IMG/VR virus record: IMGVR_UViG_3300024500_000038
Location: 1-56,064 of that record
From: a virus
Length of the DNA stretch: 56,064 nucleotides
Reading direction: 5' to 3' (one strand)
In this document: positions 3,783-56,064 of the stretch, piece by piece
How positions within the stretch are numbered: the stretch's first letter is position 1
Layout of the letters: each line of letters starts with the position of its first letter
Position numbers and translations under genes: made by a program
The notes under the pieces: model-generated
What the model saw: only the letters and a program-made list of their open reading frames with translations
Told to the model about the DNA's origin: nothing
Databases searched by the model: none

Positions 3783-4347
3783 GGAAGAAGTTGTCCGCAT
3801 TGCCAGCATTCCAGATGCAATCCACATCAGCGATGTTGGTGTTACGTTTAGTGGACAGTTAGATGAGAACGACTGGATCCGACTGATGGGAACCCTTACC
3901 CGGCTAGAGAAAGCCATACAGTTCTCGATCGGTGACGCGCTCAACTACGGTAATGCCAGATACGGAGAAAAGTACAGCCAGGCCATGGAAGTCACAGGGC
4001 TGACATACCAAGCTCTTGCGAACTATTCATGGGTTTCGGCAGCGGTACCCATCGAGAATCGTAAAACAAACGTTACGTGGAGCCATCACAGACTGGCAGC
4101 TAAGTTACCGAAGGACGAACAGGCCACTGCTCTGTCGCTTGCCGAGCAGAATGATTGGACTCTAGATGAGATGAAGGAATACATTGACGGTAAACCAGCA
4201 AACCCACGCAACATTGAAACAGTAATTGTTCCGACAGGTATCAGCCCGAAGGAAGCGACCGACGTCCTGAAGGCATATGCAAAATGTCAACGCGAAGATG
4301 AACCCGTCGAGACATGCGAACGTTGTCCATTGAGGAGTATCGGATGA
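3775..4347 (+). CDS. ParB/KorB-type HTH-like DNA-binding protein, putative
   Basis: The frame opens at 3751, but the ATG at 3775 has GAAAGG seven nt upstream and overlaps the preceding stop, so I chose it (190 residues). The centre contains GLTYQALANYSWVSAAVP, then TWSHHRLAAKLPKDEQ and NDWTLDEMKEYI. Patterns of this kind (W-S-H-H, then paired helices) are common in phage and plasmid HTH proteins that resemble ParB DNA-binding cores. The C-terminus has a CERCP pair that may bind zinc. It precedes the initiator gene and overlaps it as ATGA, so a role at the origin or in early regulation is likely. Confidence 0.6.
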   Translation: MSREEVVRIASIPDAIHISDVGVTFSGQLDENDWIRLMGTLTRLEKAIQFSIGDALNYGNARYGEKYSQAMEVTGLTYQALANYSWVSAAVPIENRKTNVTWSHHRLAAKLPKDEQATALSLAEQNDWTLDEMKEYIDGKPANPRNIETVIVPTGISPKEATDVLKAYAKCQREDEPVETCERCPLRSIG

Positions 4348-5201
4348 TCGCTGTGACATTCGGGCATTTTCGTGGCGATAACCGCGACATAGCTGTGACA
4401 AATCTAAGTATGTACGGGGACTTCAAGGAACACTTGAAGTCCTTTCAGCCTACCGATTGGATGGTATTCACGTATCTAATTTTCCAGATGACAGCTAAGA
4501 CACCCGCTGTGGCCGTCTCTGTTGGCGAAATAGCGAAGAATTGTGGCCTGTCCGAGTCAACTGTCAGATCCACGGTTAAACGCCTCTCTACGGTCAAAAT
4601 CGGCGACCAGAGAATACTCATTGTCAAGCAGCGCACGGACTCGGATGGTAGTCCGATGCAGAACTTGTACGTGTTACTGCCCACCAATGAAGAGGTCGAA
4701 TGGTTTGAGGGTACTGTAGATTTTGGGGGTACCTCAAATTTTGAGGGAGGGGGTACCTCAAATTTTGAGGGAGGGGGTACCTCAAATTTTGAGGGACACT
4801 ATAGTAAGCCTGTTAATTCGGTAGGCTTATTAAATATAAATAAACCCCCTATAATTCCCCCAAAGCCAAAGAAGGGTGTTTCTTTACCTAAAGATGACGA
4901 TCCAGCGCTGCCTTTATTCCTGGCATGGCGGCGCACCGTGTACCCAGAACTGAACGATGAATACACATTAGCCGAGTGGAGGAAAGCTCACATAGTCCTT
5001 CGGCAAATGATTCACAAGGGTGTTACGGAGGACGACGTGCAACGTGCGACGTCAGTACTGATTCGTAAATGGAAGAACAGGGACATGGTAACAATGCATG
5101 CTCTGTGGAGTCACTGGGCTACAGCGAATACCGTTGGATCATCCGGCGTCGTTTCACAGGGAGCATTGAGTGCAATCAGAGCAGCAAAGGGTATTGACTG
5201 A
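4344..5201 (+). CDS. Winged-helix replication initiator, O/DnaD-like
   Basis: The start is set at 4344: GAGGAG lies six nt upstream and the ATG overlaps the previous stop as ATGA. The protein (285 aa) has an N-terminal winged helix (residues about 30-115: MTAKTPAVAVSVGEIAKNCG, then LSESTVRSTVKRL), typical of phage replisome organisers that bind origin iterons. Residues about 128-151 are three copies of the octapeptide GGTSNFEG, encoded by perfect DNA repeats. A proline and lysine linker follows, then a helical C-terminal domain (AWRRTVYPEL... onwards) suited to contacting the helicase or its loader. The gene therefore seems to hold its own binding sites, as lambda O does. Confidence 0.8.
   Translation: MIAVTFGHFRGDNRDIAVTNLSMYGDFKEHLKSFQPTDWMVFTYLIFQMTAKTPAVAVSVGEIAKNCGLSESTVRSTVKRLSTVKIGDQRILIVKQRTDSDGSPMQNLYVLLPTNEEVEWFEGTVDFGGTSNFEGGGTSNFEGGGTSNFEGHYSKPVNSVGLLNINKPPIIPPKPKKGVSLPKDDDPALPLFLAWRRTVYPELNDEYTLAEWRKAHIVLRQMIHKGVTEDDVQRATSVLIRKWKNRDMVTMHALWSHWATANTVGSSGVVSQGALSAIRAAKGID
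4725..4796 (+). repeat. Three perfect 24-bp direct repeats (iterons)
   Basis: Three identical head-to-tail 24-bp units run 4725-4748, 4749-4772 and 4773-4796. Each holds GGTACC and the inverted repeat CCTCAAATTTTGAGG (4732-4746, 4756-4770, 4780-4794), a 7-bp dyad about one central base. The 24-bp period is two helical turns plus a little, so the dyads lie on nearly the same helix face. The unit is in frame with the initiator and codes for GGTSNFEG. Confidence 0.9.
4725..4860 (+). other. Probable replication origin inside the initiator gene
   Basis: The iterons are followed at once by an AT-rich stretch (about 4797-4860, including TTAATTCGG and TTATTAAATATAAATAAA), a good candidate for the unwinding element. 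An imperfect hairpin (AAGCCT at 4805, AGGCTT at 4822) lies between them. Iterons plus an AT-rich tract within an initiator gene, beside helicase-loader and DnaB genes, is the lambdoid origin layout. Inference from sequence only. Confidence 0.7.
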
Positions 5202-5565: not shown

Positions 5566-6091
5566 GAAGACTTTTGTGGCGTTTGCTAACTTCATGAGTG
5601 CGATGCCAGCTAAGCAAGAATGGGATGAGCGATCATCTGGTTTGTATGCCCTAGCGATGAGTGATTGGTCTGATGATGTAGTCAAGGCTGTAACCAAAGC
5701 GGCCGCCACACGTTGCAATTTCAGGCCATCGCCTTTCGAACTTCGTAACATTGCATTCGACATTATCTTCAACGGTGTTGATATCAACAGGATTACAAAT
5801 GAGATTAAGTCGATCATCCTTCATAAGCCATTGTCAATGCGTAATTCAGCACTTGAATCAATGGCTGAGAACAATCCTGACCTTAGAATCGTAGCTGACG
5901 TCGTCAAGCAGGCCGGCGGTTGGTTAACGCTAGGTAGCGTAACACCTGAACGCTTTGATTCTGTTATCCAATCAGCATTAGTCTCCGTGCTAAACTCCAG
6001 TAAATATGAGTTATTGCTAACTAAACCCATGAATGAATGGGCGCAGCAAATTGGAGACTCCGATGGGCAGAAGGAAAAATTGCTTGGTTAG
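5558..6091 (+). CDS. Candidate helicase loader (G39P/DnaI-like)
   Basis: Start chosen at the GTG at 5558: GAGGAGG lies six nt upstream, and an internal stop-start overlap with the gene before it is preserved. The 177-residue protein is all helical. Its first 70 residues follow the pattern of small helicase loader/inhibitor proteins such as SPP1 G39P: a first helix (FVAFANFMSAMP), W..RSSGLYALAMSDWSDDVVKAV, then CNFRPSPFELRNIA, where the Phe-x-Pro-Ser box precedes a helix. There is no ATPase motif, so it is not a DnaC-type AAA+ loader. Position between initiator and DnaB supports the call. The C-terminal half is unrecognised. Confidence 0.55.
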   Translation: MTEKTFVAFANFMSAMPAKQEWDERSSGLYALAMSDWSDDVVKAVTKAAATRCNFRPSPFELRNIAFDIIFNGVDINRITNEIKSIILHKPLSMRNSALESMAENNPDLRIVADVVKQAGGWLTLGSVTPERFDSVIQSALVSVLNSSKYELLLTKPMNEWAQQIGDSDGQKEKLLG

Positions 6092-8030: not shown

Positions 8031-8088
8031 CGATCTTTTGCTGCACAGCCTTGAATCCGGGATGTGCAGCAGACTTCTTACTATTCAT
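7918..8088 (-). CDS. Small basic phage protein, 56 aa
   Basis: This gene starts with ATG at 8088, with AGGAGG five nt upstream, and overlaps the end of the giant virion gene. The 56 residues are very basic: SAAHPGFKAVQQKIAKKQG, then DRAGAILASASRKAGPAAK, ending KRKNPRLNKVR. I recognise this as a type of small conserved protein found near structural genes in many phages, function unknown. It is the last gene of the late minus-strand operon and runs tail-to-tail into the HTH gene, overlapping it by 113 nt. I see no clear terminator beyond it. Confidence 0.75.
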   Translation of the reverse strand: MNSKKSAAHPGFKAVQQKIAKKQGIPMDRAGAILASASRKAGPAAKRKNPRLNKVR

Positions 8089-11000
8089 ACGTGCCTCCTG
8101 TAAACGCCTTTCCAGGCTTACCCTGCTTCAACAGATCAATAATGTTAGGTGTTTGGTCTGCGGTGTACAGGTTCGTCTCTTGCTTGCGTTCCTTGATTGC
8201 CGCCTGCGGCTTAATCTCAGTCTTGAGACCGAAGCTGTTTAGCAATTGGCTCGCGATCGTGTAAGCAGATGTGTTGCCTTCATACTTGTCAGTTGCAGAC
8301 ATAGTGTCAAGTATCGTAGCAACAGCAGTAGGCATTCGCTCAACAACAGCATTTGAGAATCTAACATCATCCATCCAAGGTTGATAGCTGCCATTTATCT
8401 CAATAAGACGAGGTTTGACGAACTTGTCATACACATACTTAAAGCTTTCGCTTTCACCAAACATTGGTTCACCAATAGGTGTGCGACCTGTGAAGAATGC
8501 ACCAGATATGAAGTTGTACAAAGGACTTGCCTTGTAAGTGAACTCGCGATGTAGGTCATCGAATGTATCGCGTAGTACCGTAGTTCCAGCTTCCTTAGCT
8601 TTCTTCTGCTCCGATGGTGTAATCATCCATGCGGCTTGAGCCAAGCGGAACCCAAGACGATAGTGGTCAAAGACGCCGGCTGGAGGGTCAATCCTAAAGT
8701 CCCCAACTCTAATACGTCCAAAGTTTCTATCCGTATTAGTTTCTACTTCAGTGCCTTCAGGCAGTTTATCTGCAATCAACTGAGAGAAGAACATCAAGAA
8801 CATCCATGCTCCTGCCATTCTCGCCCACATCTTCATACCGATAGCAGTTGCAGCCTTATCACCCTTGTATAGATCAAATACGGGGTTATCCTGACCCATA
8901 ACATTACGCATGAATCCAAAGTAAGAAGATGACAGGACGTTATTGATTACTGGGTCTATCAATGCCCTAGATAGTAACCAACGTGGAGCGGTGAACAATA
9001 CTTTGAATATACGTGAAGCCTTAGCATCCGTCTCGGTGTTGGTAGAGTATTTGATATCACCCACACTAACCGCAAGTATCCGCGCTGAATCACGAAGCGC
9101 AGTTTTGTACTTTTCGGATCCTGGTATATAACCGTGTGCCATGATTGCTTTCTTCATGTGATCAAACTGAAGAAGTAGAACCATGTCATGAACGATGGCG
9201 TTGTAACGCTCGAACATTCCCTGGCCTGGAATGTGTTGCGTCCAACGTCCTTTAAGGAACCATTCGTCGTTCGTTCCTAGTTCGTCAATGTCCATAAGCG
9301 TTGTCTTACAGTCATCGATAGTAGCGTTAGGATTAACGCGGCGTAGGTTATACAACTCAAGATCAAGAGCATCCTGTAGGCGCTCATCGATTGTGAACAT
9401 AGTTAAAGGAAGCTGAGCTTCGCGTGCTTCCTCGTATACATCCATTGCACGCAGTTCGTTGCCGATCTTGTGGAACACTTCGCGTCCAAACTTGCGAGTG
9501 CCATACGTCTTTCCATTGAACTCAAGTTGCATGTTAGGCGCGAAGAATCCACGGAAGCCGGCGATCAAAGCCTTCATACCAACAGCTGGGTTCGTCAGGA
9601 GAATAAGTCCAGCCTGCAATGTTGTAAATGCAAAGTCAGCTGAAAGCACAAGGCGGGTAATGTCATTGAACTGGTCAACAATGTTGCCCAGTACTTGATA
9701 CTTTTCAGGCTTCTTGACTGGGTTAAATTTCTCTGGCATCGAAGGTCCGCGCATGTCAGAGTAGTCAACACGAATTGGCATAGGCGCCGGAGTCGCATCG
9801 TATGCCATGTCATCCGTAGAATCGACGCGCTCGTACATGACGGTCAATGGCTCAGCAGTTCGTGTTACCTTGACCGATGTATCTTTCTTGGTCCATGACG
9901 CAACATTAAGTGCTGCATGAGAGTTACGTGGCACAGCGATGTTTTGCAAAGCGTTGTCACCGCCAACACTGTGTTTCACATTAAGGAATACAATACCGTC
10001 GCGGTTCTTATGCTTAGCTAGTAACTTACTAACGGTACCAGCATCCATACCGCCACCGTTTAGATCAATGACCTGTGGGTTGTCCATACGGACATACTTC
10101 ATCTTCTTGTTCTGGCCAGTTAGCCTATCAACACCAGATGGAAGTATGTATCCTTGAGCGGAACGCAACCAGATCGACGTTGGTGTGTCAGGTACAAAGC
10201 CTATCGTAACCAATGGTTTTCCAGTGCGTGGACGCAGAGCCGCTTCCTTGTACGCGGTCGCATCTTTCAGTACTGTTCGCGCAACATCAAACTTTGTCTG
10301 CTTCATATCAAGCTTTAATGCCATTTGAACTGAAGCGTTTTTAGTATTGCCGTCTGCTGCAAAATCTACGATTCGCTTGATTGTTTTAGGCGTTTTCTCA
10401 CCACGATAGAAGTCATCAAGTGCAATCGACAATGAATCCATATCGTCGTCAGTTACGACTGCTGATGACGCCATGTCCTCCATAATGGCCAACGCATCCT
10501 GGCCGGCCATATAGCGACGAATACTACTCAGGTATGCGGGTGGAACATCTCCTATGGTCACATCAGGCCGGATATCCGCATTGGCTACCGATTCCACAAG
10601 TGGATGACCACCAGACCATTGCTTAAACTCTGGCGATTCGGTACGTGCATAATGAGCAGCAGCTTGATTAGGCGACATACCCATGACCTTGGTCATCAAG
10701 CGGAATGCGTGAGATGAGTTGCCACGGTAATCACGAACAGCAGTTACCTTGCCATTGTTACCAATCGTTATGCGGTCAGCCTTTGCTAGATCAACCATGC
10801 CACGCTTGGTCTGCGCCAATATATCTGGCTGCTGAATGAAAGTATCGGTTGCAGCAGCGTCATCGAATGTGTCAACACTGTCGAACATGAATTGGGACAT
10901 TGGTATTACGGTATTTACATTTTCTTCACCTCCCCATTCCATTAAATGAGCTGCTGTCAGCACATACCTATTAATAGGCATTTTTGTATCTCGAAGAACG

Positions 11001-14000
11001 AGACCGGCGTTAACGGATAGTGCCTTTACCGTATTACTGACTGGTAACGGAACTATAGTTCCGTCTTCTTTACGAAGCTTAGCATCACCATTACGACTTA
11101 CGATAACCGTACCTTTTGGTACGTCGCTGCTACCTTTAACACGTTGATATGTAAATGAGTCGCCCTCCATACCTCTAGGTGCATAGGCAAAATCGCTACC
11201 TCGACCTTCTTTTGTGTTAAGCGTCCAAATGTTTGCAACAGCCTTATTGGCTTCGATACCAGATGCAACTAATCGTTGCATGTATGCACGGTGAACCTTG
11301 TTGTAGTCTCCATTAGGGACAAGTTGCGCGCTGAGAGTAACGGCCATTTTACCGATAGTTGTATGTAAGGAGAGTGCTGACGCAACTTCACCTACTGTAA
11401 CAAGATTACGAAGATAACCTATAGATGCTTGATGAGCTGAAGTGTAATCACCAAATTCAGACAACTCGCGGAATGTCTGAAGCATATCTTTAATAGGTTC
11501 TCTAAATTTTTCAACACGCCGCTTATTATCTCCAAGTCCTTCAAGGAAATCGGTTATGTGTTTGTCCGTTAAAGATCCGTTGTAAAGAGCAACAAGTTGA
11601 TCGCGAGTTACATCTGTACTCCTAACGTTGAATGCATTGTCATTAGCATATTCGGGAACAGAGTTAAACACCTCTGGATCTTTAATCATATTAAGGAGAG
11701 TTTCTCTAACTGTTCCATCCGTTTTAACCACCGATGACATATTAGACAGGAACTTGTGAACAACAGGATGATTTATTCCGTTACGCAAATATTGGCTATT
11801 GTGTAAGAATGACGCAAGCTGTACTAGACCAGAGAACCCCTCATTGCGATACATACGGCGAATAACTGTTATCGGTTGTACGCCTTCAAGCATCTCTGGT
11901 GTAACGTCGCGAACGAGTCCATCAATACTTGTTCGCATGATGTACGCCAAGTTTTCGACATTAGCCGTACTTAGCAGTGGGTCGTAAACACGGGTTGATG
12001 CAGATGGTTGTGCAATGCGCATTTTGAGGACACTGTCAAACATCTCACCATTTACATCTGCATATTGCGTTGCAAAGTTGGTGTATGCATCTTTTGTTTC
12101 CTGGCTACGAATAATGCGTCCTAACGTATGGACGTTGATACCAGGACCAAAGCTCGGATGCTTTTCAATGATCTGTCGCCGGAAGTCAACACCAATACCA
12201 ATAGGAGCAGTGTTTGATCCTGAAATAGAGAATATCTGTTGACTAGGATCGATAAGACCAAAGTCTTTAAGTCTTGGAGGGTTTGAGAAAACAAACACGT
12301 TTTCGCGTGGGATACCCAATGACTTAGCAAGGTCAGAATACGCCTCAATCGTAGCATCGGACATATTGATGTCTTTGATTAGGAATATCGGGAAATCGTA
12401 ATCACGCTTAGTTAATGGTTTATCCGACTCGTACGTGTTGTATGCTATTCGACCGCGAGGCATCCATACGTCACCGGTGTCATCGTCACCAGTTCCATCT
12501 TCATCGTCTCCAGTGCCGTCTTCGTCACCGGTGTCGTCACCTGTACCGTCTCCGAAGTCATCTCCGGATCCGTCACCGTCTCCACCATCGTCAGGCCCAC
12601 CTGTACCCGATTCATCAGCGGTACCATCGCCAGGCTCGGTGAAGCCCTCAAACATCTGTGGCTCGACAGCCTCAAGCCACTTCATGTTTTCGTCGTAGTA
12701 AGAACCGATGAACGAACTCAATGTATCCATCAAGTTAGCGTTCATACCATTGGTTAATCCACCGTATTCGATAACACTACTTATCGGAATCTCAAAGACG
12801 GAACGACCATCTGTAACGCTTACAAAACCAACGCGTGTACGGCTTTCAGGGTAGCGATCAAACTCTGCCTGATCTACTGTCGTAGCCTTCTTAGCAGTAA
12901 CCCATCGCTTACTTCCGTTATGATTGATGTATAGGCCAGTTCCAGCGTAAATCTTTGCACCAGTGTATGGCGCACGCCATCGCACTGTGTAAGTACCATC
13001 AGGACCGCGCCGAATTGGTCTCTTACTCGCAATTGTTTGTATGACGCTATTCAGGTAACGACGAGTACCCTGATAAACCGTGTTGAGCGCCTGCGCTGGT
13101 TGTACCTGCTTTCGTACTCTAGTCCCATCACTTTGCAGTACCTCTTCGACTCGTCGTGGCGCCATACCGTTTTGGATATCAGCAACCATCATTGCCACTA
13201 ATTGTTCTTCAATATGTGTAGGTAAGTTATCTATATCAGTAACTTCATTGATACCTGCACGGCTTAGCTGGTTCACTAACTTGCGACGTGACGCAGAATC
13301 CATACCACGGATAAGCGCATGTACGACTTCATGGATACCAGTCAACTGATCACGGGCAGCCAAACCAACGATGACATTCGATGACATACCAGTTTGTTTT
13401 GCACGCTTGAATATGAATCCGGTTGCTTCACCATCAAGTTTGGTGACATCATTGATAAAAGCAAACGATGCGAGTCGTTCTTTGTAGAACACGCGCATAT
13501 AAGCAGCAACACTTTTGAGTACATCAGGATCCGTGTTAAACATTTCCCGATAAACTTTTTCGTCAAGAAGGTTGCCTTCATCATCTCTGACTTCGACAAC
13601 TGCTTCCCCTGGCCGACCAGATGTCATTAACGCAGCATGTGTATCTAACGCTACACGTCCGCTTCCTTCGACTTGACGCATCGCCCAGGCTCTCGCAAAG
13701 TTATCGACTATACCTGTAAAGAAATAGGCACCATCGTTACTGAAATTGAATTGTTCAACCAATACAGTCTGTAACTGTCTGCGGTTCGCTACTTGGGTTG
13801 CGTCAGCTTCGACTACATCTCCACCGATGTCAAGTAGTACCTTCTCAATGACACGATTATTAACCACGTCAGATGGAGCTTCGTCTATATTCGGCCGCTC
13901 TCGAATACGGCGGCGCGACCTTCCACGGGATCTACCGGCGTCCTCTGCATCAGCACGCGCAGCCTCAAGTTCACGTTTAAGTCTTTCAAGTTCGGCCCGT

Positions 14001-17000
14001 GCCGCTTGGATTTCAGCCAGGTAAGCTTCTTCTCGTTGCTTAGCCTCGTCCATAGCCTTGTTCAACTTGTCTGTAAGTTCGGCTAAAGCAGCATCACTAA
14101 TTTGTGTCGCCAACTGCAAGTTGGATGATCGTTCGTTCGCGTCAGTGATAGCCTTTGTCAGAGCCTCGATAAGGTCCTGCATCGATGTAAGATCAGTGCT
14201 TGTCTGTGGACGCCCATTCTCTATTATGCGTTGTAGACTTGCGATAGCCGCCTCGTATTGTGCCTTCTGGTCTAACAGTTCCCTGCGGAGATCGTCAGCG
14301 ACTCTACGGGCTTCCTCACTGCTTGCCGCTGCCGCAGCAGCAGCTGCCTGCCCAAGTTCTGTACGAATCTTAGCCAGCTCTTCACGTAGAAGCGCCTGTT
14401 GTTCAGATGCACGACCTTGCTCCTCAGCTAACTTTTTCGTTAGTTCTTCGATGGCAAGTCTAGCTGCTTCCAGTTCTGCTGTCTTTGCTGCCTTTAATCG
14501 GTCAACCTCAATCTGCTGTCGTCGAAGTTCGCGGTTGGCTTCTTCTTGGATGCGACGTGCTTCCAATTGTTTATCGAGCATCTCACGTCGGAATTGGCGA
14601 TCACGCTCACGTTCAGCCTCGCGCTTTGCTTCAGCCTCTTCACGCTCGCGTTTACGAGCCTCTGCCTTATCGGCAAGTTCAGCTGCTCGGCGTGCCTTCT
14701 CTGCATCCTCTGCGGTGGCATCTGCAAGATGAGCTGTTACTACAAATGTTCGGTCACGAACAGCCTGGCCCGTAGCATATGCAACAGAGTACTGAATTGC
14801 TTTATTGACTGCTTCGCGACGATCTAGTGTTGACGCAGGTGTGTATACAGCATCTGGTGTACCAGTTGCGTCAGGACTAGACATAGAGTTATAGAGATTG
14901 AAACTTCCGTCCGGATTACCTCGAAGCGCATACGTCGTACGATAGTCTCCAGTAACCTCACCTTTAGGGTTGAATTCTTGCAGGCGCAGTTGCAGAGAGA
15001 CAGTACCGTTTTCGTTACGATCTATTGTTCCGTATACGTGCTTGTATCTGGTTCGGACGTTGAATGTTCGGGCTGAACTAAATTCTGTCGTAGCCTCAGT
15101 ATCTGCGACGTCAGTATCAACTGACTCACGCATCGGTAGTTCATCTCTACCAAGGATTTCTGGATCACCTTCAACAGCGTCTTCATCCGCAGTTTCACCT
15201 TCTACGCCAGTAGTATCCTCAATAATCGGTGTTTCAACTTCGGCTTCTGGTTCAGCAGTGCCGAGTTCCGGGAACATATCAGTGAAGTCTTCTGTTTCCA
15301 ACAGATTACGCAAAGCACTATTGACACGGCCCTTGGTTGCAGATGTTAGTTCAATGACATCAACATCTTCAGTAGCACGCGATTCTACTGGCGTCATTTC
15401 TGGTGTTTCTGCTGTACCTTCGCCAACTTCAGCAGATGTACGCGCAGATACTGATCCGACGCGGCCGTCACCGTCCACGTCTTCACCAATCATAGTTTCA
15501 GCTTCAGCTGGAGTAATGGGATTACCCAACTGGTCTGCGACAACCATATTGTTTTGAACAACAAAGGCAGCTTTACGTGGTTGATCAACTAGGCGGACTT
15601 TGTAACCACGGGGTGTTAGTTCTGTAATGATAGCGGTTTGCTGGCCAAACTCAGCGGTCATGACGTCTACAACATCGGCACGCTTGAACCTGCCATCTGC
15701 TGGCTCAAATCCCATAGCCTCTTCGACGTCGGCAGCAATCTCGGAACGAGCGGCTTCGATCGCCAGGTCTCTAGCCTTCTTATCGGTAATAGCCCGTGCA
15801 TTATCGAACAGGTAACTCTTAGCGGACCGAGCGCGTGATACGGCTCTATTCTGTTCTGGTGTTAGTTCTACTACGTCAGCGGTGTTCGTATCTGGGTCAT
15901 AGAACTTCCATTGCATGCGACCGACACGCTCTTGTGGTGCTAGTTCACCAAGATATGTTGGGAAGTATTCGTCACGTATGTTTCCAAGGACTTCTGGTTT
16001 TGCACCAGATGTATCCTCAATGTTGATTTGACCTTCGTTTACACGGATGTGTGTGCCGTCTGGCAAACCAACGATATACATACCCTGACGTGGGTCACCA
16101 ACTGCTTTGATTACGCGACCAGGAATTGGTTCCATACCTTCTTCAAGGTAGATATTCTGCTTGTAAACGTATCGGTCGGCGTTATCAAAGTTATCCGGAT
16201 TGAACTGCGATGGTCTTTCGTTTGGCGCAACACCTTGAGCAGCCATCGTATCGACCAGCTTTTCGGCAATCTTCTTGTTAGAGATTGCGCTAACCGGGAC
16301 AACCATGATCTTACTGCGGCCATCAGGTGTTACATCACGCACAACTACGCCGGCGTCTCTCGAGATACCAATTACGTTTCGCGTTACACCAGATCGCCTA
16401 TCACTGTAGGCAATGACTGGCTGTCGTTGGAACAGTGCAGTAATCGTCTGCAATTGTTCTGCTGCGTATTGTGAGCGACGGCCTTCCAAAGGTAACGCCA
16501 TATCTTCAAAGATAGTCGCTTTGCGATTCTTACGATCGAAGACAGCATACTCAGCACCAGCAAGTATCGGTCTACCTGCGGCGTCCACACCAGGGCTATA
16601 TCGACCACCAAGGTTCAGGCGCTGTAGTCCCTCATCACCGTAAGGCGTGATTTCTGACTCTATTGGACGAGCTGGTCTACCTAATTCACGGGACTGTCGA
16701 AGCTCTGTAAGCTTATTCAATGCATAGGCAGGATCTGTAATCTTATTCGCAAATTCAAACGACGCCTTGCCAAGTGGAGTTTCGCCACCAAGCAATGCAC
16801 CAATCGCGCCATTGAATAGAATCTCCTGCGGAGACAAACCAAAGCCACCCTTAGCTTTTGCCGCTTCACTCTGCTGGTACGATTCGAACATACCTTGCGC
16901 GGCTTCGATGGAGCGGTCACCAATGTCGCTGACAGTTGCTTGTACCTGTGTATTCTTTAGTGCTTTGGTCACACCACGACGGGATATCTGACGTGCGGCC

Positions 17001-17986
17001 TCACGGATACCGACGCCAGGGATTTTTAGGCTAGGCGCAAAGAATGTAAGGTCTCCGGCAAGTGAACCAGCTTGTGACATCAGTGGGTAATCTGCTGCTA
17101 ATTGACCTCGATAGTCTTCCTTTGCTTTAAGAGCAGCTGACCCTAACATTAGACCAAAAGCTTTGTCATTGATAGCAGAGTTAATGTCTGTACCAATCGT
17201 GCCGCCGCCAGCAGCTCCAAGTAAACCAGCCATAAGGTACGCGGCACCCTTGTATTTCTTAGGTGCTAACGCAGCTGCTAATCCACCGGCTCCACGGAAG
17301 CCCAGTGTGCCTCCAAAGATGGTTCCTGGCATAGATGCTATGCGTTCTTGGTAAGGTGTACCAAACGCTTCGCCAGCCGCGATGAGAGGGTTGTTACTTT
17401 GTTGGTAGGCCAGACTTGGGTCACCACTTTGTCTTCCTTCAACAAAAGCCTGAATGGGTTTGTAAATACCAGAGATCACGCCAACGCCTGCGTCTGGAAG
17501 TTGCTGGAAGCCCGTCTGTAAATCCCGGAATGTATATGGCTGTTCATTCCATCGCTGCACGTCGTCGCGCGTATACTTTAACTTATCAAGATAAGCTTCT
17601 TCGTCCTCGCGAGTCTTCTGTATCTGTTGTCCAAAGTCTTCTTTGGCAGACTGCCTTAGTCCATAGATAGCTTCTGGTGATAGGTCTGGACGATACTCGT
17701 TATCAGGCGTAAAGTACTGTCGCTTATCTTGGTCATTGACAAGTTCAATAGCACGACTTGCTTTGAACTTAGCTAATGTAACTTTGTCCTCGCGTGAAAC
17801 TAAGCCTTCCTTGAACAGCCTGTCTACATTGCGGGTAAATGATTTGGAAAATAAAACGTCATCGTATTGACTACCGTTAGCAATATACTCTCGCGCACCT
17901 GCTTTAGTAGTTAAGTCCGGGGAATCCCGCAGAGCCTTAATAGTCGGAGCAATTGATTGATATTGTCTAAGTTGACGTTCATTCAT
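8081..17986 (-). CDS. Giant internal virion / polyvalent protein, 3301 aa
   Basis: Last large gene of the late operon, in the position of T7 gp16, so probably ejected with the DNA. Visible parts: Gly/Ala-rich hydrophobic stretches (residues about 215-290) that could enter a membrane; a Ca-loop-like DVDGDGRVG near 838; a long charged coiled coil (about 1085-1360); a zinc-peptidase motif H1552-EVV-H1556 with E1592/E1593 downstream; an Asp/Gly linker (about 1785-1845); an ADP-ribosyltransferase-like segment (about 2590-2700, NRDGIVFLNV); and a C-terminal region (about 2760-3160, HIPGQGMFERYN, LFTAPRWLLSR) resembling domains of large phage polyvalent proteins. I see no RNA polymerase motifs. Size is far above T7 gp16 (1318). 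Confidence 0.8.
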   Translation of the reverse strand: MNERQLRQYQSIAPTIKALRDSPDLTTKAGAREYIANGSQYDDVLFSKSFTRNVDRLFKEGLVSREDKVTLAKFKASRAIELVNDQDKRQYFTPDNEYRPDLSPEAIYGLRQSAKEDFGQQIQKTREDEEAYLDKLKYTRDDVQRWNEQPYTFRDLQTGFQQLPDAGVGVISGIYKPIQAFVEGRQSGDPSLAYQQSNNPLIAAGEAFGTPYQERIASMPGTIFGGTLGFRGAGGLAAALAPKKYKGAAYLMAGLLGAAGGGTIGTDINSAINDKAFGLMLGSAALKAKEDYRGQLAADYPLMSQAGSLAGDLTFFAPSLKIPGVGIREAARQISRRGVTKALKNTQVQATVSDIGDRSIEAAQGMFESYQQSEAAKAKGGFGLSPQEILFNGAIGALLGGETPLGKASFEFANKITDPAYALNKLTELRQSRELGRPARPIESEITPYGDEGLQRLNLGGRYSPGVDAAGRPILAGAEYAVFDRKNRKATIFEDMALPLEGRRSQYAAEQLQTITALFQRQPVIAYSDRRSGVTRNVIGISRDAGVVVRDVTPDGRSKIMVVPVSAISNKKIAEKLVDTMAAQGVAPNERPSQFNPDNFDNADRYVYKQNIYLEEGMEPIPGRVIKAVGDPRQGMYIVGLPDGTHIRVNEGQINIEDTSGAKPEVLGNIRDEYFPTYLGELAPQERVGRMQWKFYDPDTNTADVVELTPEQNRAVSRARSAKSYLFDNARAITDKKARDLAIEAARSEIAADVEEAMGFEPADGRFKRADVVDVMTAEFGQQTAIITELTPRGYKVRLVDQPRKAAFVVQNNMVVADQLGNPITPAEAETMIGEDVDGDGRVGSVSARTSAEVGEGTAETPEMTPVESRATEDVDVIELTSATKGRVNSALRNLLETEDFTDMFPELGTAEPEAEVETPIIEDTTGVEGETADEDAVEGDPEILGRDELPMRESVDTDVADTEATTEFSSARTFNVRTRYKHVYGTIDRNENGTVSLQLRLQEFNPKGEVTGDYRTTYALRGNPDGSFNLYNSMSSPDATGTPDAVYTPASTLDRREAVNKAIQYSVAYATGQAVRDRTFVVTAHLADATAEDAEKARRAAELADKAEARKREREEAEAKREAERERDRQFRREMLDKQLEARRIQEEANRELRRQQIEVDRLKAAKTAELEAARLAIEELTKKLAEEQGRASEQQALLREELAKIRTELGQAAAAAAAASSEEARRVADDLRRELLDQKAQYEAAIASLQRIIENGRPQTSTDLTSMQDLIEALTKAITDANERSSNLQLATQISDAALAELTDKLNKAMDEAKQREEAYLAEIQAARAELERLKRELEAARADAEDAGRSRGRSRRRIRERPNIDEAPSDVVNNRVIEKVLLDIGGDVVEADATQVANRRQLQTVLVEQFNFSNDGAYFFTGIVDNFARAWAMRQVEGSGRVALDTHAALMTSGRPGEAVVEVRDDEGNLLDEKVYREMFNTDPDVLKSVAAYMRVFYKERLASFAFINDVTKLDGEATGFIFKRAKQTGMSSNVIVGLAARDQLTGIHEVVHALIRGMDSASRRKLVNQLSRAGINEVTDIDNLPTHIEEQLVAMMVADIQNGMAPRRVEEVLQSDGTRVRKQVQPAQALNTVYQGTRRYLNSVIQTIASKRPIRRGPDGTYTVRWRAPYTGAKIYAGTGLYINHNGSKRWVTAKKATTVDQAEFDRYPESRTRVGFVSVTDGRSVFEIPISSVIEYGGLTNGMNANLMDTLSSFIGSYYDENMKWLEAVEPQMFEGFTEPGDGTADESGTGGPDDGGDGDGSGDDFGDGTGDDTGDEDGTGDDEDGTGDDDTGDVWMPRGRIAYNTYESDKPLTKRDYDFPIFLIKDINMSDATIEAYSDLAKSLGIPRENVFVFSNPPRLKDFGLIDPSQQIFSISGSNTAPIGIGVDFRRQIIEKHPSFGPGINVHTLGRIIRSQETKDAYTNFATQYADVNGEMFDSVLKMRIAQPSASTRVYDPLLSTANVENLAYIMRTSIDGLVRDVTPEMLEGVQPITVIRRMYRNEGFSGLVQLASFLHNSQYLRNGINHPVVHKFLSNMSSVVKTDGTVRETLLNMIKDPEVFNSVPEYANDNAFNVRSTDVTRDQLVALYNGSLTDKHITDFLEGLGDNKRRVEKFREPIKDMLQTFRELSEFGDYTSAHQASIGYLRNLVTVGEVASALSLHTTIGKMAVTLSAQLVPNGDYNKVHRAYMQRLVASGIEANKAVANIWTLNTKEGRGSDFAYAPRGMEGDSFTYQRVKGSSDVPKGTVIVSRNGDAKLRKEDGTIVPLPVSNTVKALSVNAGLVLRDTKMPINRYVLTAAHLMEWGGEENVNTVIPMSQFMFDSVDTFDDAAATDTFIQQPDILAQTKRGMVDLAKADRITIGNNGKVTAVRDYRGNSSHAFRLMTKVMGMSPNQAAAHYARTESPEFKQWSGGHPLVESVANADIRPDVTIGDVPPAYLSSIRRYMAGQDALAIMEDMASSAVVTDDDMDSLSIALDDFYRGEKTPKTIKRIVDFAADGNTKNASVQMALKLDMKQTKFDVARTVLKDATAYKEAALRPRTGKPLVTIGFVPDTPTSIWLRSAQGYILPSGVDRLTGQNKKMKYVRMDNPQVIDLNGGGMDAGTVSKLLAKHKNRDGIVFLNVKHSVGGDNALQNIAVPRNSHAALNVASWTKKDTSVKVTRTAEPLTVMYERVDSTDDMAYDATPAPMPIRVDYSDMRGPSMPEKFNPVKKPEKYQVLGNIVDQFNDITRLVLSADFAFTTLQAGLILLTNPAVGMKALIAGFRGFFAPNMQLEFNGKTYGTRKFGREVFHKIGNELRAMDVYEEAREAQLPLTMFTIDERLQDALDLELYNLRRVNPNATIDDCKTTLMDIDELGTNDEWFLKGRWTQHIPGQGMFERYNAIVHDMVLLLQFDHMKKAIMAHGYIPGSEKYKTALRDSARILAVSVGDIKYSTNTETDAKASRIFKVLFTAPRWLLSRALIDPVINNVLSSSYFGFMRNVMGQDNPVFDLYKGDKAATAIGMKMWARMAGAWMFLMFFSQLIADKLPEGTEVETNTDRNFGRIRVGDFRIDPPAGVFDHYRLGFRLAQAAWMITPSEQKKAKEAGTTVLRDTFDDLHREFTYKASPLYNFISGAFFTGRTPIGEPMFGESESFKYVYDKFVKPRLIEINGSYQPWMDDVRFSNAVVERMPTAVATILDTMSATDKYEGNTSAYTIASQLLNSFGLKTEIKPQAAIKERKQETNLYTADQTPNIIDLLKQGKPGKAFTGGTYE

Positions 17987-47358: not shown

Positions 47359-47425
47359 TTGGTATCCTTTAACAGTAAAGTGTAATCACCTTACGTCAAC
47401 ATGATACCACGCCCAGCAAGTATTA

Positions 47426-51403: not shown

Positions 51404-51421
51404 AACAAACCTCCACCCGCA

Positions 51422-51427
51422 AGTATA
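51422..51427 (-). promoter_or_regulatory. Extended -10 promoter (minus strand)
   Basis: TGGTATACT on the minus strand gives an extended -10 box, followed by TGCGGG and the ribosome site GGTGGAGG. The joined motif TATACTTGCGGG is one of several intergenic copies of ATACTTGC in the window. It should drive the operon from 51403 down to the terminator at 49474-49500. Confidence 0.6.
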
Positions 51428-51444
51428 CCATGCAATCGCGCATA

Positions 51445-51996
51445 CTACGCGACTTCATTACCCCATACGTCCCAGCCAGGGTACGGTCTACGCGCGAACA
51501 ACTCGATCTTACGCATGCCCGGATACAACTGATCTATACGCTCATGCACAGCATCAGGCTTCCTGCTATGCTCCATTCGCGGCGCCATAACTACCTGTCT
51601 GACGCTCTCGTCAGACAGCTTCAAAGGCCTACCAGACTTGCAAGGGCTACCAACCAACACAAGCTCCGTCGTAGGCTTTACAACGCTAGGACGGACGCCC
51701 TGCGCGCCCACAGGCGTACCATCCTGCTTCGTCTTCACCCACACAAAGCCAACCCCCCTATACGCTAAGCCCCAGCCTCGCAATAAGTCCAGCGCAGCGT
51801 CCAGACGCGGACCAGTAGCCCACATAAACACCACGCTGCGCGAATGCAACAGCTGCTGGACAGGCAACGCCAACAGATCAGCGTCGCTCATCGTTGGGTA
51901 GAACTTCGCGGCGGCGCCCCACTTATCCTGGCTACCGCTATACGACCACGGGGGGTCACACAACACTACGTCATACTGAACGGAAGGGAAATCCAT
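51445..51996 (-). CDS. MT-A70-like DNA adenine methyltransferase
   Basis: The 183-residue protein has YDVVLCDPPWSYSG with the DPPW catalytic motif at residues 14-17, then FMWATGPRLDAALDLLRGWG (the later core strand and helix) and GFVWVKTKQDG. This is the fold of MT-A70-type and small phage N6-adenine methylases, which methylate adenine in DNA. GAGG lies five nt before the ATG at 51996; the GTG at 52002 is less well placed. The phage could protect its DNA from host restriction, or mark promoters. No cognate endonuclease was seen. Confidence 0.85.
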   Translation of the reverse strand: MDFPSVQYDVVLCDPPWSYSGSQDKWGAAAKFYPTMSDADLLALPVQQLLHSRSVVFMWATGPRLDAALDLLRGWGLAYRGVGFVWVKTKQDGTPVGAQGVRPSVVKPTTELVLVGSPCKSGRPLKLSDESVRQVVMAPRMEHSRKPDAVHERIDQLYPGMRKIELFARRPYPGWDVWGNEVA

Positions 51997-52140
51997 ATAC
52001 ACCTCGGTACGTTATAACATGGCTTCTACGGCGGGAGAAAGTCAATTTTGAGGAGATGTTCCGTAGGCGTGGGGATCGTAAGAAAAAAATAATAAGGGGG
52101 CGGGGGCTTGCCATACCCCCCTGCCACACACGGTGTGTGA

Positions 52141-52156
52141 GGGAGGGAGGGGAGGG
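52141..52156 (+). other. G-quadruplex motif with one-base loops
   Basis: The run GGGAGGGAGGGGAGGG has four G-tracts of three or more separated by single A bases, the form expected to give a very stable parallel quadruplex in DNA or RNA. A nearby GGGGGCGGGGG (52096-52106) adds to it. It lies in the structured region upstream of the gene at 52448. Confidence 0.8.
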
Positions 52157-52184
52157 AAGGCACGGCGTCGCGTGCGTAGGGCGG

Positions 52185-52327
52185 CCCGCGGTAGCGGGCT
52201 GCTTCTCTTGGAGGGGGAGGCTTCCCCCGAACGGAAGCCATGCGGACGCATGGCCGCAGCTCCGCGCGGATGCGCGGGGCTGTAGCTCGCGCGGTAGCGC
52301 GATCTATTCCCAGCCGCGGATGCGGCT
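52185..52327 (+). repeat. Hairpin family, cluster 1 (GGTA/GGAT/GGAC loops)
   Basis: Five perfect hairpins with four-base loops: CCCGC-GGTA-GCGGG (52185-52198), CCATGC-GGAC-GCATGG (52238-52253), CCGCGC-GGAT-GCGCGG (52262-52277), TCGCGC-GGTA-GCGCGA (52287-52302) and AGCCGC-GGAT-GCGGCT (52312-52327). Stems are 5-6 bp and differ from each other, but pairing is kept and the loop stays GGAT, GGTA or GGAC, closed by C-G. Confidence 0.88.
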
Positions 52328-52447
52328 TGTTTGCGTTCCTGTTCAAAAGGCGGCGGCAGCCGACTTGCGAACAGGAGCATCCATCCCCCCAGCAAGTATG
52401 CGATACTGTCCCTGTTGGTGGTTGGAACACTCTGAAAGGAAACTAGT

Positions 52448-52828
52448 ATGGAAAAAGATAGAATGTTTGCTATTTGCCGTGCGGCGAATACCTACTTCAA
52501 GAATATCGGTCACATCGACTGGGCGACAGACCGACAGTGCAAGTCATGGAATGTGGACTATTGGCGCATAACGCAGTCCGACAATGATTTTGCTGAGCCT
52601 ACCGCGTACGTTGTCGAATTCGACCTTGCAGTCTTCACCGATTGTGAAGGCGTAGAAAGTACTTGTGAAGGTACTTGCGACATGGGCGAAAGTGAACAAT
52701 TCCGCATCCATGTAGAATCCGGTCACGACGCGGAATGTTTGATGAAATACGCGCTGGCCGACCCAGACTGCTGGATTATGTCCATCAGGTCGGAACCTGA
52801 TAGCGTGCGAAAGTGGACGACTAGATAG
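52448..52828 (+). CDS. Hypothetical acidic protein, 126 aa
   Basis: AAAGGA is seven nt before the ATG, and a likely promoter lies about 40 nt upstream. The protein is acidic with six Cys (ICRAANTY; TDCEGVESTCEGTCDMGES; HDAECL; PDCWIM), some in a C-x6-C-x3-C cluster that may bind metal. The sequence YVVEFDLAVFTDCEG looks like a strand pair. No family recognised. It is the first gene of an orphan plus-strand block. Confidence 0.65.
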   Translation: MEKDRMFAICRAANTYFKNIGHIDWATDRQCKSWNVDYWRITQSDNDFAEPTAYVVEFDLAVFTDCEGVESTCEGTCDMGESEQFRIHVESGHDAECLMKYALADPDCWIMSIRSEPDSVRKWTTR

Positions 52829-52837
52829 TTTAGACTG

Positions 52838-52859
52838 CCTGCCCGGGCAACCGGGCAGG
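52838..52859 (+). repeat. CCTGCCCG-GGCAAC-CGGGCAGG hairpin
   Basis: An 8-bp perfect stem (52838-52845 with 52852-52859) with loop GGCAAC, in the gap between the two orphan genes, just before the ribosome site of the second. It has only a weak T-tract. The core CCCGGGCAACCGGG recurs at 53179-53198, and CCCGGGCGACCGGG at 53281-53298. Confidence 0.75.
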
Positions 52860-52880
52860 TTTGAAGGAAAGGAAAGTAGA

Positions 52881-53168
52881 ATGAAACTCAAAACAATTGC
52901 AGGATTAGACGGGTACGAATTTGCTGGTGCTATCAGCAAGGCGACAGATAACGCGGAAATTGCCGAAGCGGCATATCAGCGTGCTAGAAATGCCAAACAT
53001 AACGCCAATTATCAAATTGAATGTCCGACAGTCTTTATCAGCGAAGCGGCCGCGGATTGGGATACTGTAATTTCATTGTCTGATATTCGCGCATTGGTAG
53101 CAAGCGTTGAAATTATCGCCGCAGAAAACGGTATCTTGCTGCCGCAGAATTGGCAGGTAATCTATTGA
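52881..53168 (+). CDS. Hypothetical protein, 95 aa
   Basis: GAAGGAAAGGAAAG gives a strong ribosome site before the ATG. The 95-residue protein has a Lys/Ala/Asp-rich first half (MKLKTIAGLDGYEFAGAI, then AEIAEAAYQRARNAKHNA), a Trp in AADWDTVISLSDIRALV and a helical end. No family recognised. The stop overlaps the next start (TGATG). Confidence 0.6.
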   Translation: MKLKTIAGLDGYEFAGAISKATDNAEIAEAAYQRARNAKHNANYQIECPTVFISEAAADWDTVISLSDIRALVASVEIIAAENGILLPQNWQVIY

Positions 53169-53272
53169 TGCGGCGGAATAGCCCGGGCAACCGGGCTAGA
53201 CTTCGCGAGTTTATAGGTTTTGTTCTAATATTCGCGCTCGTAGTATTGGCCAGTGGCCTAAATAACAATTGA
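53168..53272 (+). CDS. Small single-pass membrane protein, 34 aa
   Basis: The ATG overlaps the previous stop (TGATG), so it is likely translationally coupled. The 34 residues have a basic N-terminus (MRRNSPGNRARLREF) then IGFVLIFALVVLASGL, a single membrane helix, and Asn at the end. Its first codons are encoded by the second CCCGGGCAACCGGG hairpin (SPGNRA). Positive-inside rule predicts the N-terminus in the cytoplasm. Function unknown. Confidence 0.5.
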   Translation: MRRNSPGNRARLREFIGFVLIFALVVLASGLNNN

Positions 53273-53280
53273 AACTTTAC

Positions 53281-53304
53281 AGCCCGGGCGACCGGGCTTT
53301 TTTT
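53281..53304 (+). terminator. Intrinsic terminator of the orphan operon
   Basis: AGCCCG (53281-53286) and CGGGCT (53293-53298) with loop GGCGAC, followed by a run of seven T. It ends the transcript of the genes 52448-53272. The stem belongs to the same hairpin type as 52838-52859 and 53179-53198, but only this copy has the T-tract. Confidence 0.9.
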
Positions 53305-53312
53305 CCGGCCGG

Positions 53313-53349
53313 CCATTGAAGCCCAGCAGGTATGCGAGGGCTTCAATGG
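53313..53349 (+). repeat. 12-bp inverted repeat with conserved motif in the loop
   Basis: CCATTGAAGCCC (53313-53324) pairs with GGGCTTCAATGG (53338-53349); the 13-nt loop is AGCAGGTATGCGA. The string CCCAGCAGGTATGCGA matches CCCAGCAAGTATGCGA at 52387-52402 with one change. Here the motif sits in the loop; there it sits in a likely promoter. Confidence 0.85.
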
Positions 53350-53511
53350 TGAGAGTAAAAGACAGTGTCACAAAGTGACGGCCTGATTATTTGTAGATAA
53401 TAGAATCAATATTAGACTCCACAAAAATAGTAATAGTAACCACGCGCTCCACTATATAGATCCATATACACATACACACATCGTTCTCTCAACCCTTTCA
53501 GTGGCGCGTAG

Positions 53512-53853
53512 CGCTGCGGATGCAGCGGTACGCAGGTCGCGTCCTTCCTCCCAGCTTTCTTCTACACAGGGCGTAGGTGGCGCGTGTGCGTCGCGGTAGC
53601 GTCCACATGCAGTGGGCGGTTGTGCTTTGCGAAGCGTAGGCGGTGCCTGGGATCAGGTATAGCCGTAGCGCAGCAGCTTCTCAATTCCCTCGCCGGGCAG
53701 TCGCCGGGCAACACATACACGCAGGTAAGCGGGTGCCTCGCCGGGCCGCGCGGGGCGCCGCGGTAGCGGCGTCCTGCGGCTGCGCGGAGCGCTGCGGATG
53801 CAGCGGTCTGCACCCCGCGGTAGCGGGGTTAGCACATAGCTGCGCGGATGCGC
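53512..53853 (+). repeat. Hairpin family, cluster 2 (GGAT/GGTA loops)
   Basis: Perfect hairpins of the same type as cluster 1: CGCTGC-GGAT-GCAGCG (53512-53527) and the same again at 53790-53805 (a 20-base identical stretch), CCTG-GGAT-CAGG (53646-53657), CGCCGC-GGTA-GCGGCG (53756-53771), ACCCCGC-GGTA-GCGGGGT (53812-53829) and GCGC-GGAT-GCGC (53842-53853). Stems vary, loops do not. Confidence 0.88.
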
Positions 53854-54288
53854 GGGTATGTATTCGGGGGCCTCACAATTTGCTGTCGCTGTGCTATCCC
53901 CCTTGATGCGTTACACAAAGCGTGGAGTAGGGAAAAGGATCGCGAAGCGCACATACTTCTTCTCGGCAGCAGTGCGCCCACGCTCGCCTACCTGATTGCG
54001 TACTGTTCGTAGTGGGGGCAGATCGTATAGACACAAGCCTAAGCGTGGAAGCACGTCAGCTGCCGGGAAAAATTTTTTGGCCTTTCTGGGGGGAGTCTGG
54101 CCAGTTGTCGTACTGCACTAGGTCGCGCGCAATTGTGGAGGGCGCGCGCTTGGGCTGGCCGTTGGGGTTGTTCGGGCTGTCGATCGTGTCGCGCTAGGTG
54201 GTGCGGGTATGTGGCAATTTCGCTGTTGGCTACGTTCGCGCAACCTTGTTGCATTCTTTCGCGAAGCTCCGCGCGTTTTACACTCCGT

Positions 54289-55543: not shown

Positions 55544-56064
55544 ACGCGAATTACCGGTTTTCACCGATTCGGTGATACCTAAAAGCGGGATAAGTTCCAA
55601 CGGTAAACTGGGCGGCTGTGGCGCTACCTATCGCGCGGTTGGTTGCGGCGTCGCGTCTGGTACCTGTCCGGCTACTTGTTCCTATCTTCCAGAGTCCGCA
55701 GGCGGTTTGCCTGCGGCGCTTTGGTCGGCGCGTCTGGTAGCGGGGGCGGCAGGTTTTCCGGCCGTGCAGGCGGCCGCGCTAGAATGGGCGGCGGATCTGG
55801 CCGCAGGGCGTGCCAAGCTTGATAGGTGTTACGTCTTGGGGGCGCCTGCGGAATTCTCCGCGCGGCGCGCGCCGGGGTTGGATTCGTCCACGGGTTTGAT
55901 TCCGGGCGGGCTTGATGTGCGTTTGCACGTTAGCGGGGATTTCCTCCGGGCAGATAGGCGGTTTGATGCGGCGCGTCTTACCCGTTGTATTGATTGGGAA
56001 TATGTCGATCGCGTTTGCGAATTTGCCGCTATGCATCGCGGCCGCTGTTGGGTTTATACTCAAG
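55536..56064 (+). CDS. Cys-rich phage protein, gp88-like, truncated by window end
   Basis: ATG at 55536 with GGGGAG upstream; the frame stays open to the window end (176 codons). The protein shows NGKLGGCGATYRAVGCGVAS then GTCPATCSYLP, with three or four close Cys, later RCYVLGAP, and LDVRLHVSGDFLRADRRF, YTQ at the end. I recognise this as the pattern of a phage family with a Cys-rich N-terminal box and an RxHVSGDF motif (gp88/DUF7227 type), with no settled function. The C-terminus is missing. Confidence 0.65.
   Translation, partial: MSRRELPVFTDSVIPKSGISSNGKLGGCGATYRAVGCGVASGTCPATCSYLPESAGGLPAALWSARLVAGAAGFPAVQAAALEWAADLAAGRAKLDRCYVLGAPAEFSARRAPGLDSSTGLIPGGLDVRLHVSGDFLRADRRFDAARLTRCIDWEYVDRVCEFAAMHRGRCWVYTQ

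Follow-up and report, generated by a model that had tools for sequence, protein, structure and literature searches.

Two arrays of GGTA/GGAT-loop hairpins with covarying stems in the noncoding DNA of an uncultured phage, possibly structured RNAs

The early promoters of phage N4 are characterized by a variable but paired outer stem and an invariant GC...GC that surrounds a G-rich loop (PMC4496689). GOLLD and ROOL are large structured noncoding RNAs of phages with unknown function (PMC12286853), REP palindromes carry a fixed tag at one end, either GTAG or CGTC (PMC3733652), and TIGR stem-loop arrays are composed of tandem variable palindromes located in phage genomes (PMC12045711). The two hairpin arrays described here, both on the + strand (array 1, 52110–52378, and array 2, 53500–54078), resemble each of these in some respects. 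The N4 sequence GCGGAGC has its counterpart in GCGGWWGC, with the two pairs nearest the loop nearly invariant and the others varying yet remaining paired, and the hairpins of both systems are strand-asymmetric and positioned in a control region; however, the N4 loop consists of three bases, whereas the loops of the present family consist of four and occur in arrays, in ten or more copies. Like GOLLD and ROOL, array 2 is an elaborately folded noncoding phage stretch of several hundred nucleotides, but the arrays match no Rfam covariance model (the scans returned zero matches to any family), their genome includes no tRNA genes, they are built of repeated hairpins with one loop type, and they are known here from sequence alone. 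With REP and other GTAG-tagged palindromes they share short hairpins, short loops, compensatory variation in the stems, and clustering between genes (PMC3733652), the difference being that no conserved tag, dispersed copies, or transposase was found and that their position is conserved between phage species. The likeness to TIGR arrays lies in the tandem variable palindromes; no Nop-domain Tas protein is present among the proteins scanned, which do not include every small ORF, the layout of spacers and boxes C/D is not seen, and this reading was set aside.

The window, that is, the whole stretch of 56,064 nucleotides analysed, is an IMG/VR contig (IMGVR_UViG_3300024500_000038) of an uncultured phage for which metagenomes are the sole source. 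The same phage was found again in three further IMG/VR contigs with 99.97–100% identity, and these also carry the hairpin region, which excludes an assembly artefact. Since one of them bridges the ends of the window via 4,166 missing bases, the genome can be drawn as a closed map of ~60.2 kb. It encodes terminase, portal, an ERF annealing protein, a Gam-like protein, and an O-like initiator, as well as DnaB helicase, SSB, dUTPase, ThyX, and a DNA methyltransferase. The terminase and portal have only distant matches in cultured phages, and a search for the host via the terminase among 84,980 genomes yielded no match.

The leftward late genes occupy approximately 8081–52002, the replication genes run rightward, and the arrays are located at the point of divergence, in GC-rich noncoding DNA of a genome with ~47% GC. 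Array 1, positioned close to the minimum of the cumulative GC skew, is flanked on one side by the leftward methyltransferase gene (51445–51993, − strand) and on its 3′ side by a small rightward ORF (52448–52828, + strand) without a family match. The segment 54000–56000 of the window differs from the remainder of the genome in its AT skew (−0.29) and GC content (57%), and its sequence is common to other contigs of the same phage. The octamer GCAAGTAT is present in 14 copies in the window, compared to 2.5 expected, a count reached in none of 100 shuffles; its sites include 38–45, 47416–47423, 51419–51426, and 52392–52399, as well as others, and it is also found in contig L005. Several of the copies are intergenic, lie on the + strand, and lead into a TATAAT-like sequence, and the octamer is a possible phage promoter or regulator site.

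A direct scan of the two arrays located nine perfect hairpins with stems of 6–7 bp, at 52184–52327 and 53512–53829, with the loops GGTA (four), GGAT (four), and GGAC (one). A tenth, with a GGAT loop (53840–53855), has a single T.G pair in an otherwise perfect stem, and in an eleventh, CCTG-GGAT-CAGG (53646–53657), four perfect pairs are followed by G.T and T-A. Eleven perfect stem-loops had been reported in the first-pass annotation; all eleven are present, together with its tally of six GGAT, four GGTA, and one GGAC, although two of them are imperfect. That random sequence might yield as many had been named as a possible refutation; in 300 dinucleotide-preserving shuffles of 52001–54100, hairpins of 5 bp or more with one of these loops average 0.02, with a maximum of 1. 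Hairpins with any 4-nt loop number 17, compared to a shuffle average of 2.3 and a maximum of 8. All members of the family share the same orientation, being on the strand that is sense for the rightward genes, and both arrays also contain conserved hairpins other than those of the GGTA/GGAT family.

Alignment of 20 hairpins reveals a fixed architecture that was absent from the first-pass annotation. Pair 1, adjacent to the loop, is C-G in all 20, and pair 2 is G-C in 19 and G.T once, whereas pairs 3–6 are variable in sequence and paired in every hairpin. Pair 7 is Watson-Crick in only 4 of the 20, being otherwise G.G (seven), G.T or T.G (five), or C.T (four), and pairs 8–12 are mostly paired, so that most stems consist of 6 bp, a non-Watson-Crick pair, and ~5 bp. 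The loop consensus is GGWW, with GGTA being the commonest (11/20). Pairing extends to 85% of the cells in the alignment; cells changed on both sides number 64, compared to 24 in shuffles, and the covariation is 0.69, compared to 0.24, values reached in 0 of 500 shuffles, a count that is not a probability, because the 20 hairpins share kinship. Neither control slides nor shuffles reproduce this architecture.

Array 1 forms a near-continuous chain of hairpins, with a consensus structure derived from the alignment of two species (the second phage is described below), and is bounded by a leftward promoter-like site on one side and, on the other, by the promoter that serves the rightward gene 52448. 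Its family hairpins, all on the + strand, are found at 52178–52205 (loop GGTA, 52190–52193), 52237–52254 (GCCATGC-GGAC-GCATGGC, with the loop GTAT in the sister phage), 52252–52287 (loop GGAT, 52268–52271, with a long lower stem), 52281–52308 (loop GGTA, 52293–52296), and 52306–52333 (loop GGAT, 52318–52321). A related hairpin on the same strand, GGGGGA-GGCT-TCCCCC (52213–52228), corresponds in the sister phage to GGGCAA-GGCT-TTGCCC, with two compensatory pairs and the same loop. At 52338–52377 (+ strand) a stem CCTGTTC/GAACAGG encloses an inner hairpin that is not a member of the family, with the loop GGCA here and a GGA triloop in the sister phage. Inside array 1 there is also a G-quadruplex-like run, GGGAGGGAGGGGAGGG (52141–52156, + strand), largely retained in the sister phage.

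Array 2 is a conserved structured noncoding stretch and a candidate RNA of ~600 nt. It contains a family hairpin at 53506–53533 (loop GGAT, 53518–53521) in which pair 7 is a G.G mismatch, and continues with the tip CGC-GGTA-GCG (53592–53601, loop 53595–53598), where a stem of 3 bp within a longer helix provides a twelfth loop, and with the CCTG-GGAT-CAGG hairpin listed above, whose closing pair is G-C. The hairpin that follows at 53750–53777 (loop GGTA, 53762–53765) has GG/CC in its lower stem where the sister phage has AA/TT, and further on are 53784–53811 (loop GGAT, 53796–53799, replaced by GGTA in the sister phage), 53812–53829 (ACCCCGC-GGTA-GCGGGGT), and 53834–53861 (loop GGAT, 53846–53849, also GGTA in the sister phage, with a G.G mismatch as pair 7), all on the + strand. 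The last element is a conserved long branched stem (53960–54078, + strand) with arms at 53960–53970 and 54059–54069, followed by a run of six T residues (54073–54078); this terminator-like 3′ end of the array folds in the same way in both phages. An intrinsic terminator of the preceding operon (53281–53304, + strand), with the stem AGCCCGG, the GNRA loop GCGA, and a T run, sets array 2 apart from upstream transcription, and a transcript ending at 54078 would therefore probably start within the noncoding gap.

Both arrays are found in the same place in a second species, IMGVR_UViG_3300032323_001444, the portal protein of which is 95% identical. The ten orthologous family hairpins differ by compensatory changes, in the upper stem (for example, CCGCGC/GCGCGG to CTGCGC/GCGCAG) as well as in the lower one (GGGG/TCCT to GAAG/GTTG), and not a single upper pair is broken. 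Three changes are one-sided, each of them giving G.T, and the loops are exchanged from GGAT to GGTA three times and from GGAC to GTAT once. This comparison, as well as the counting of pairs, supports the earlier proposal that changing stems with a constant loop are the sign of a selected structure. Absence of the hairpins from close relatives had been named as evidence to the contrary; both arrays are present in the single close relative, and the more distant ones lack them.

Among the relatives compared, the arrays are found in these two species only. The covariance model of the 20 hairpins, applied to thirteen other relatives (portal identity ~60–74%), detected no convincing member outside the sister phage. 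Four contigs that span the divergent region (G012, G013, G015, and G023) contain there only RNA-type hairpins of the UUCG, GAAA, or GNRA-like kind or unrelated intergenic ones, no such array is seen in contig G008, which reaches ~1.7 kb beyond the junction, and relatives traced via the neighbouring methyltransferase have the hairpins solely in contigs that were already known. The triple-loop scans of viral contigs, which like those of genomes required a fixed loop order, returned mostly unrelated repeats among the matches listed. In unrelated viral contigs, tandem repeats contain hairpins of the form C-GGTA-G or C-GGAT-G (L389, 14449–14600; L331, reverse strand, 5853–5935; L201, reverse strand, 1065–1150), and another, L485 (1085–1810), has repeated palindromes GCCGGTACGT near a related methyltransferase. 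In contig L005, a hairpin at 3952–3979, located between positions 56062 and 1 of the window, scores with the family model, has the loop GTAT, and is followed by eight T residues; at least one similar hairpin thus looks like an ordinary terminator.

The two strands are not equivalent in their ability to fold. Mismatches read on the + strand as G.T outnumber those read as A.C by 22 to 3, and by 5 to 0 in the upper stem, although the + strand is G-rich here and its composition accounts for part of this excess. In the two-species alifold comparison, which shuffles columns in simple windows and does not keep dinucleotides, the z-scores are −11.3 on the + strand and −8.1 on the − strand for array 1, and −7.7 and −4.4, respectively, for array 2, compared to −1.9 and −2.5 for a coding control. 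The G.T excess and the stronger z-scores together indicate that it is the + strand that folds. With the family hairpins masked, array 2 still scores −4.2 on the + strand, but double changes are then no more numerous than in shuffles, and its long-range helices have little independent covariation.

We regard both arrays as noncoding elements of one phage lineage that fold on the + strand and, in the reading that we place first and hold with about even confidence, are transcribed structured RNAs. The tolerance of G.T pairs, the structure of array 2 that extends beyond its hairpins, the 3′ stem with its T6 run downstream of a separate terminator, and the single orientation of the family are consistent with RNA; that the arrays are transcribed, that they act as RNA, and that they bind a partner are inferences. 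On the other side, the loops GGAU, GGAC, and GUAU are neither GNRA nor UNCG and are not among the tetraloops favoured by RNA, whereas ordinary intergenic hairpins of the same phage use GNRA loops, and no convincing sigma-70 promoter was found upstream of either array. Array 2 would yield a free-standing RNA of ~600 nt ending with the stem and U6 at 54078, and array 1 either a structured RNA of smaller size or a leader for the rightward gene 52448. Each repeat, comprising an upper stem of 6 bp with C-G and G-C beside the loop, a loop that reads GGUA or GGAU, a pair 7 that is not Watson-Crick, and the lower stem, could serve as a docking site for one partner, which might be an RNA-binding protein, encoded by the phage or its host, or a different segment of the RNA itself. 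More tentatively, we propose that the arrays may belong to large structured phage RNAs of a new class, in which a repeated module of fixed geometry, with GGAU and GGUA equivalent, provides a multivalent scaffold or decoy.

A serious, if somewhat doubtful, alternative is that the + strand hairpins fold as DNA, either single-stranded or extruded by negative supercoiling, and that SSB or a protein of replication, recombination, or transcription reads the GGTA/GGAT hairpins much as N4 promoters are read, with tetraloops instead. Among mismatches, DNA tolerates G.G and G.T best, a DNA energy model folds the + strand hairpins better than those on the − strand, and the arrays are located between divergent operons, where negative supercoiling is high. 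The loops GGTA, GGAT, GGAC, and GTAT, always closed by C-G, all fit d(cGNNAg) or d(cGNABg), although ~11% of tetraloops (28/256) would do so by chance and the loop types are not independent; these are DNA tetraloops selected thermodynamically for stability, to judge by the title of Nakano 2002 as given in the references of PMC9969394. The replacement of cGGCAg in the inner hairpin of array 1 by cGGAg in its ortholog also produces the loop of the N4 promoters (PMC4496689). However, the DNA parameters of ViennaRNA do not single out the family loops and rate GGAC poorly, the conserved structure of array 2 beyond the hairpins and its end resembling an RNA terminator are not accounted for, and no hairpin-reading polymerase was found in the genome.

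Promoters of the N4 type proper, as had been suggested, are unlikely in view of the four-base loops, the arrays of ten or more, and the lack of similarity to the N4 virion RNA polymerase, vRNAP (gp50), for which blastp and phmmer against all ORFs of at least 50 aa, as well as hhalign against a giant protein of 3301 aa, returned nothing significant, although a polymerase of very remote kinship may have escaped these comparisons. This protein, encoded at 8081–17986 at the convergent junction, was considered as a vRNAP on account of its size and position and rejected for its dissimilar sequence; it has no relatives above threshold in Pfam, PHROG, or PDB and is possibly an ejected polyvalent protein. 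Replication offers the DNA reading little help, as lambda-type iterons are located away from the arrays, at 4707–4796 within the O-like initiator gene (4314–5201), where three exact copies of the 24-bp GGGGGTACCTCAAATTTTGAGGGA and a weaker one form a likely lambda-type origin. The arrays are thus unlikely as the main origin in spite of the nearby GC-skew minimum; they may still act as the primase or initiation sites listed earlier, with the iteron origin elsewhere.

It is improbable that the hairpins are REP-like mobile or host-derived palindromes accumulated in the intergenic DNA of the phage, as the many similar units in DNA more GC-rich than the genome, one duplication of 38 nt, and the lack of arrays in more distant relatives might suggest. 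The sister phage retains all ten in place, and the two species differ there by compensatory changes instead of gains and losses. In the phage itself only the two arrays were seen. GTAG or GGAG does precede two hairpins, but these bases, located in the lower stem, also occur as ATAG, GGGG, GAAG, and AAAG and change together with the opposite arm, unlike a REP tag. No transposase is present among the proteins scanned, and with the one pattern used, paired arrays in the order GGAT-GGTA-GGAT were absent from 84,980 species genomes of bacteria and archaea, where none of 57 pattern matches forms a paired hairpin array, leaving the proposed host palindromes unsupported in these genomes. Least probable is that a GGA-binding regulator of the CsrA/RsmE type uses the hairpins as a landing site or is titrated by them as by a sponge, the latter also among the earlier proposals, because GGA, exposed by the GGAT and GGAC loops, is missing from GGTA (11/20 loops), which replaces GGAT at three orthologous positions with loss of the GGA core.

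Of what had been proposed for this locus, the selected structure thus stands, whereas N4 promoters and a CsrA sponge are unlikely. Noncoding structure with strong covariation and no match in Rfam usually corresponds to a signal, in RNA or DNA, that has a definite partner, and the fixed spacing of a constant loop and a non-canonical pair is what would be expected of one module recognised as a unit. If the arrays act as RNA, the reading preferred here, they would include a candidate for a new large RNA of phages; if they act as DNA, they would show the tetraloop counterpart to the N4 promoter hairpin in natural use.
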